The notes under the pieces: model-generated | Seen by the model: only the letters and a program-made list of their open reading frames with translations | Database searches by the model: none | What the model was told of the DNA's origin: nothing | NCBI GenBank assembly: GCA_019186945.1 | Contig: JABAQJ010000007.1 | Location: 434,001 to 498,000 of the forward strand | DNA: 64,000 nucleotides | Direction of reading: 5' to 3' | From: Gemmatimonadaceae bacterium | Lineage (GTDB): Bacteria > Gemmatimonadota > Gemmatimonadetes > Gemmatimonadales > Gemmatimonadaceae | Position numbers and translations under genes: made by a program | Part shown: in pieces, positions 36,999-37,604 of the stretch | Layout of the letters: the number at the start of each line of letters is the position of its first letter | Numbering within the stretch: the stretch's first letter is position 1

Positions 36999-37604
36999 TC
37001 AGGACTCTCCCTCGCCGGGCGTGGGAGGCGCGACCTTGTCGACTTCGGCATCCAGTTCCGTGTACGCATCGGCTGCCAGAACCCGGAATGCCGTCTTGTA
37101 CGTGATCTTCCCGCTCTTGTCGATCACGTACAGATGGCGGGCGTCCATCTTGCTGGTCTCGTTGTAAGCCTGATAGAGCCGGCTGATGGCGGCGCTGGTG
37201 TCGGAGACGAATACGATCGGGAACGACGACTGCCTGGACCATGCAATGAGCGTCGAATCGGGATCGATGCTGATGCCAAGGACGGTCACATTGCGTCCGT
37301 TGTTGAAGAGCGTGGCGTACTGATCACGGTACGCCTCCATCTGCACCGTTCAACCCTTGCTCCTGGCCTTGGGGAAGAACGCCAGAACCACCGCCTGCCC
37401 ACGAAGGTCGGAGAGCTTCAGCCGATCCCTGAGTACGCCGAATCTGGTGATGCCCTGGAAGCCGAAGTCCGGCGCCGTTTCGCCGACCGACGGGCCGACG
37501 GCAAGGGCTCCCGGTTGCTGCGCCTCCACGTCACGGGCCTGGGTCATGCTCGCCAGGACCGCGAAGATGGAGAGAAGGGGAAGTAGCCGTCGAGCGTGCG
37601 TCAT
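36999..37604 (-). CDS. Predicted selenocysteine-containing exported peroxiredoxin
   Basis: One AhpC/TSA-type peroxiredoxin is split by a single in-frame TGA at 37350-37352. Reading through it gives 201 residues. A signal or anchor segment (LLPLLSIFAVLASM, about 8-21) is followed by VGETAPDFGFQG and LSDLRGQAVVLAFFPKA. The active-site stretch is FFPKARSKGUTVQMEAYRD, with U at residue 85 exactly where relatives have the peroxidatic Cys (KARTxGCTVQM). ISIDPDSTLIAW and HLYVIDKSGKITYKT complete the fold. No other Cys remains, so it would be a one-Sec enzyme reducing peroxides outside the cytoplasm. A SECIS-like hairpin follows the TGA. A nonsense mutation is the alternative. Confidence 0.8.
37314..37335 (-). 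promoter_or_regulatory. Putative bacterial SECIS element
   Basis: In the mRNA, GGCGUAC pairs perfectly with GUACGCC around the 8-nt loop CGUGAUCA. The stem starts 15 nt after the UGA and the apical loop spans nucleotides 22-29 downstream. The second loop base is G. Position, stem and loop fit the general description of bacterial SECIS elements bound by SelB. Confidence 0.65.

Follow-up and report, generated by a model that had tools for sequence, protein, structure and literature searches.

The Gemmatimonadaceae genome analysed here encodes a peroxiredoxin in which a TGA at the peroxidatic position is very probably decoded as selenocysteine (Sec). The gene lies in the window, a stretch of 64,000 nucleotides (contig JABAQJ010000007.1, positions 434,001 to 498,000), where the first-pass annotation had joined two minus-strand frames across the TGA at 37350-37352; frame, ATG (37604) and stop (36999-37001) are exactly as it gave them. 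With the TGA read through, the product is a 201-residue protein; called mechanically, the gene falls into two separate ORFs, one on each side of the TGA. The features of the gene are as follows:

36999..37604, minus strand: Sec-peroxiredoxin gene, 201 codons plus stop, one TGA read through
37350..37352, minus strand: TGA codon, read as Sec85 at the peroxidatic position (P78-K-A-R-S82-K-G-U85) by homologue comparison
37314..37335, minus strand: bacterial SECIS hairpin, 7-bp stem GGCGUAC/GUACGCC, 8-nt loop CGUGAUCA, 21 nt from UGA to loop
37371..37373, minus strand: Pro78, the peroxiredoxin motif proline (position -7), shared with all 21 Cys homologues but with a minority of Sec homologues
37137..37139, minus strand: Arg156, an arginine invariant in all 48 aligned sequences
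37521..37604, minus strand: probable signal peptide, about residues 1-28 (VEA-QQP), by sequence inspection

In a profile search, the AhpC-TSA domain (PF00578) matches residues 40-169 straight across the TGA (E 5.9e-26; 91.3 bits, above the gathering score of 26). The codon, in the context FFPKARSKG-TGA-TVQMEAYRD, coincides with the peroxidatic Cys of the peroxiredoxin motif PxxxT/SxxC, giving a PxxxT/SxxU motif (PKARSKGU), and homologues have Cys there, which bears out the earlier placement of the TGA at the catalytic residue of an AhpC/TSA peroxiredoxin. The translation contains no Cys, in agreement with the one-Sec protein that had been proposed.

The genome (3.95 Mb in 20 contigs, estimated completeness 100%) has the full Sec pathway that such a gene had been taken to imply, all four of selA, selB, selC and selD being found: a tRNA-Sec with anticodon TCA (70.5 bits), selA (508 bits), selB (350 bits) and selD (373 bits). 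All lie on contig C6, with selC adjoining selD; the window is on C2. The selD gene itself carries a TGA at its active-site codon, which brings the selenoprotein genes of this genome to two or more:

L017:1402-2421 (own genome, contig C6), minus strand: selD with in-frame TGA at the active-site codon (FARCAGUAAK), beside the tRNA-Sec gene

Matches to the formate dehydrogenase alpha subunit, sought as a further selenoprotein, contain no in-frame stop. Four haem-copper oxidase (COX1) genes are present, on contigs C3, C5 and C10. Judged by its gene content, this bacterium is a Sec user equipped for aerobic respiration.

The hairpin behind the TGA was described in the first pass as SECIS-like, with a perfect 7-bp stem and an 8-nt loop 15 to 36 nt after the TGA; its coordinates and letters are confirmed (in DNA letters, stem GGCGTAC/GTACGCC and loop CGTGATCA, 15-36 nt past the TGA). 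It falls within every limit of the bSECIS model, which specifies a loop of 3-9 nt, a stem of 4-16 bp, a G at loop position 1 or 2, a distance of 16-37 nt from the UGA and a minimum free energy (MFE) of -7.5 or below (PMC13188914): the loop is 8 nt, the stem 7 bp, the distance 21 nt and the MFE -11.8 kcal/mol, and the second and third loop letters are G and U. Of 5000 synonymous resamplings, 280 (5.6%) reach an equal or better fold; taken singly, the hairpin is mildly unusual and is not proof on its own. It goes beyond chance because it is conserved in 115 relatives. Across 115 non-redundant Sec genes, the residues AYRDQY past the TGA are encoded almost without variation (GCG in 114, TAC in 115, CGT in 111, GAT in 113, CAG in 114 and TAC in 113), whereas the 21 Cys homologues mostly use CGC for Arg (17) and GAC for Asp (14); this near-frozen synonymous stretch is the hairpin itself, and it is frozen in the Sec genes only. 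The inner six stem pairs are kept in 115 of 115 Sec genes, and the outermost pair covaries, its 3' letter falling on a third codon position where changes are synonymous: it is GC in 74, CG in 17, TA in 9 and AT in 1, hence paired in 101 of 115 genes against a mean of 55 and a maximum of 70 in 20,000 shuffles. The hairpin is not kept in the Cys homologues, and mean MFE is -11.0 for Sec genes and -5.2 for Cys genes (p 3e-12). With both conservation and covariation in hand, the SECIS reading is upheld.

The codon at residue 85 follows the Sec machinery among relatives. The comparison covered 99 related, mostly metagenome-assembled genomes from the same family and order; in 64 of them the orthologue carries TGA at precisely residue 85, as read in the DNA of each. 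SelA and/or tRNA-Sec score above the cut-off in 63 of the 64, and the last one, G050, shows a 57.5-bit selA fragment where a contig ends. Both genes are missing from 14 of the 15 genomes with Cys-only orthologues, so that machinery is present in 63/64 TGA genomes against 1/15 Cys-only genomes (Fisher p 1.8e-13, with related genomes treated as independent). For ten of the 15 the residue-85 codon itself was read, and five (G008, G035, G049, G058, G079) are classed by the lack of a stop in the match; the association test leaves out G014, G037 and G072, which are without a proper orthologue, and genomes whose best match is a more distant peroxiredoxin (30-39% identity). Two candidates for TGA without machinery, G017 and G023, were rejected on their DNA, which has Cys at residue 85 and TGA elsewhere.

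Whether homologues carry Cys or Sec at residue 85, a question raised in the first pass, is answered by both: among non-redundant Gemmatimonadota genes the codon is TGA in 115 and TGC or TGT in 21. Copies with in-frame TGA, counted at any position, are spread over many of the class's families in a 200-genome sample of the phylum, and on the tree the Sec/Cys state requires six changes compared with 28 in shuffles. The 80 loci fetched from GTDB contigs are all from Gemmatimonadota, except for two records titled only 'uncultured bacterium'. Across the genomes compared, the Sec form thus appears as the rule in the class and is no oddity of the window's genome. Seven loci (L088, L090, L097, L098, L100, L103, L107) have a Cys paralogue directly upstream of the Sec gene, near 2.4-4.1 kb (0.5-1.6 kb in L103), placing both forms in one genome.

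By inspection, the N-terminus is hydrophobic and, like that of almost every homologue, closes with a cleavage-like A-Q site; a few homologues show a lipobox-like Cys. In the predicted structure (mean pLDDT 87, confident save at the termini) the N-terminus is disordered and of low confidence. From these N-terminal features we infer that the protein is exported. The mature part is free of Cys in 112 of 115 Sec proteins, the three exceptions having a Cys at the extreme C-terminus, and a second Cys is absent from 21 of 21 Cys homologues. Since the mature protein has no Cys, it would be a one-Sec enzyme.

These data suggest a mechanism in several steps: decoding of UGA 37350-37352 by SelB with Sec-tRNA-Sec, directed by the hairpin at 37314-37335; export; reduction of peroxide by the Sec85 selenolate, held by Ser82 and Arg156, with formation of a selenenic acid; and reduction of the oxidized Sec by a second molecule, for which an exported thioredoxin-like protein with a CxxC motif, supplied with electrons through CcdA, is the likeliest candidate. 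Reduction by another molecule would be needed because the mature protein has neither Cys nor a second Sec, and the chain would run from cytosolic thioredoxin to CcdA, to the exported thioredoxin and to the Sec-peroxiredoxin. The scheme is built from sequence, namely the Sec codon, the SECIS element, the full pathway, the peroxiredoxin fold and motif, and the thioredoxin/CcdA neighbours in relatives; of its steps, incorporation of Sec into the protein almost certainly takes place.

The proposed donor comes from gene neighbourhoods. In 29 of the 80 loci, the Sec gene faces, tail-to-tail, a gene for an exported thioredoxin-like protein whose CxxC motif is mostly WCPNC, together with a CcdA/DsbD_TM gene; the window's genome has a counterpart of this pair on the same contig as the Sec gene:

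L059:3608-4874, minus strand: thioredoxin-like and CcdA pair, example from one of the 29 loci
L202:980-2187, minus strand (C2:75-76 kb): thioredoxin-like and CcdA pair of the window's genome, 68% and 53% identical

The CcdA part of the pair scores 170 bits against the model of the selenoprotein TsoB, below the cut-off of 805. The immediate neighbours of the Sec gene in the window (a glycine-zipper protein, a MOFRL-type (DUF4147) glycerate-kinase-like gene, a diacylglycerol kinase, a nitrilase, an agmatine deiminase and an aconitase) include no redox partner; the arrangement with the first two is also found in other relatives. We give an even chance to the exported CxxC thioredoxin-like protein, fed via CcdA, as electron donor. 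That the enzyme is a Sec-peroxiredoxin with some other reductant, for example low-molecular-weight thiols or another periplasmic disulfide reductase, is only somewhat less probable: the pair adjoins the Sec gene in no more than those 29 loci, is convergent with it and shares no operon, and in the window's genome lies about 395 kb away. Against this, both partners are kept in the window's genome, and the adjacency recurs beside highly diverged Sec genes of the phylum, one of them on a Longimicrobiales contig.

The active site has a bearing on the chemistry. Foldseek matches the predicted structure to peroxiredoxins in the PDB (E about 1e-14), and residue 85 lies at a helix start, as in peroxiredoxins. 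T or S stands at position -3 in all 115 Sec proteins, and the invariant Arg156 is likely to be the catalytic peroxiredoxin Arg; from such features we infer peroxidase activity. The motif proline at -7 is kept in the window protein and in 21 of 21 Cys homologues but in only 28 of 115 Sec homologues, the other 87 having mostly Phe or Tyr, which suggests relaxed or altered active-site needs with selenium. With three quarters of the Sec homologues thus lacking the motif proline, substrate or chemistry may differ from those of classical peroxiredoxins. The loss of this peroxide-site residue in 87 of 115 Sec and none of 21 Cys homologues also fits an exported Sec redoxin that is no peroxidase and serves, for example, in a redox relay or in methionine-sulfoxide or metal/electrophile chemistry; the T/S at -3, the invariant Arg, the peroxiredoxin fold and the proline kept in the window protein make this unlikely. 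A TGA that is a true stop, in a pseudogene or through a sequencing or assembly error for TGC or TGT (this last being an objection that the first-pass annotation raised against itself), is consistent with the separate mechanical ORFs on either side and has a negligible probability, given TGA at the same residue in about 115 non-redundant homologues (115 genes with frames intact on both sides), its tracking of the Sec machinery and the RNA-level constraint on the codons past it.

Taking decoding as Sec, it is conceivable, if somewhat doubtful, that an old exported single-Sec subfamily of the peroxiredoxin fold, its active site altered (Pro to Phe/Tyr in most) and its electrons supplied through CcdA and a TlpA-like thioredoxin, serves this largely aerobic class as a core defence of the envelope. 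If so, selenium would be a standard cofactor of soil Gemmatimonadota and no anaerobe's relic. Aerobic bacteria seldom retain selenoproteins, according to a 2026 review (PMC13188914); in contrast, a genome with four haem-copper oxidase genes here keeps the whole Sec pathway, and places Sec, as do most relatives, in an apparently exported enzyme of oxidant defence. Automatic annotation is likely to break the gene at the TGA, and therefore a class-wide envelope selenoenzyme can be missed; the near-frozen SECIS may aid the finding of further selenoprotein genes in the Gemmatimonadota genomes compared. Sec and Cys homologues occur here as a natural series, with tandem pairs in some genomes, on which the advantage of Sec over Cys outside the cytoplasm can be tested directly.

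Sec-containing peroxiredoxins (PF00578, T/SxxU) are an established family, as the first pass had stated (PMC1794560, PMC2398784, PMC13188914). In the literature on Gemmatimonadota selenoproteins, as covered by titles and abstracts with few subscription journals, no description of a Sec-peroxiredoxin was found. The window protein resembles the known Sec-peroxiredoxins in its AhpC/TSA domain, peroxidatic Sec, T/SxxU motif, Cys homologues and bacterial SECIS right behind the UGA. It is set apart from them by a signal-peptide-like N-terminus and a mature part without Cys, and its clade by loss of the motif proline in most members and by its spread through one mostly uncultured phylum, all of which Sec-peroxiredoxins of other phyla may share. 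PrxU (NCBIfam NF040737) belongs to the same peroxiredoxin family and aligns over residues 36-179, but the window protein scores 48.1 bits against its cut-off of 270 and falls outside the equivalog. Cys-type PrxQ/Bcp-like peroxiredoxins (e.g. PDB 2ywn, 3hjp) have the same fold and active-site layout. They differ in having Cys for Sec, and identity to them is distant only. We know of no export signal in that group. The exported Cys paralogue of Gemmatimonadota is closer (about 40-50% identical), with an export-signal-like N-terminus, one Cys and sometimes a tandem position with the Sec gene; unlike the Sec form, it has TGC or TGT at residue 85, no SECIS hairpin and always the motif proline. What is new is a class-wide, apparently exported Sec-peroxiredoxin of an already known type with features of its own clade, and these features (export signal, lone Sec, mostly lost proline and thioredoxin/CcdA link) could justify ranking it as a variant after comparison with Sec-peroxiredoxins of other phyla.
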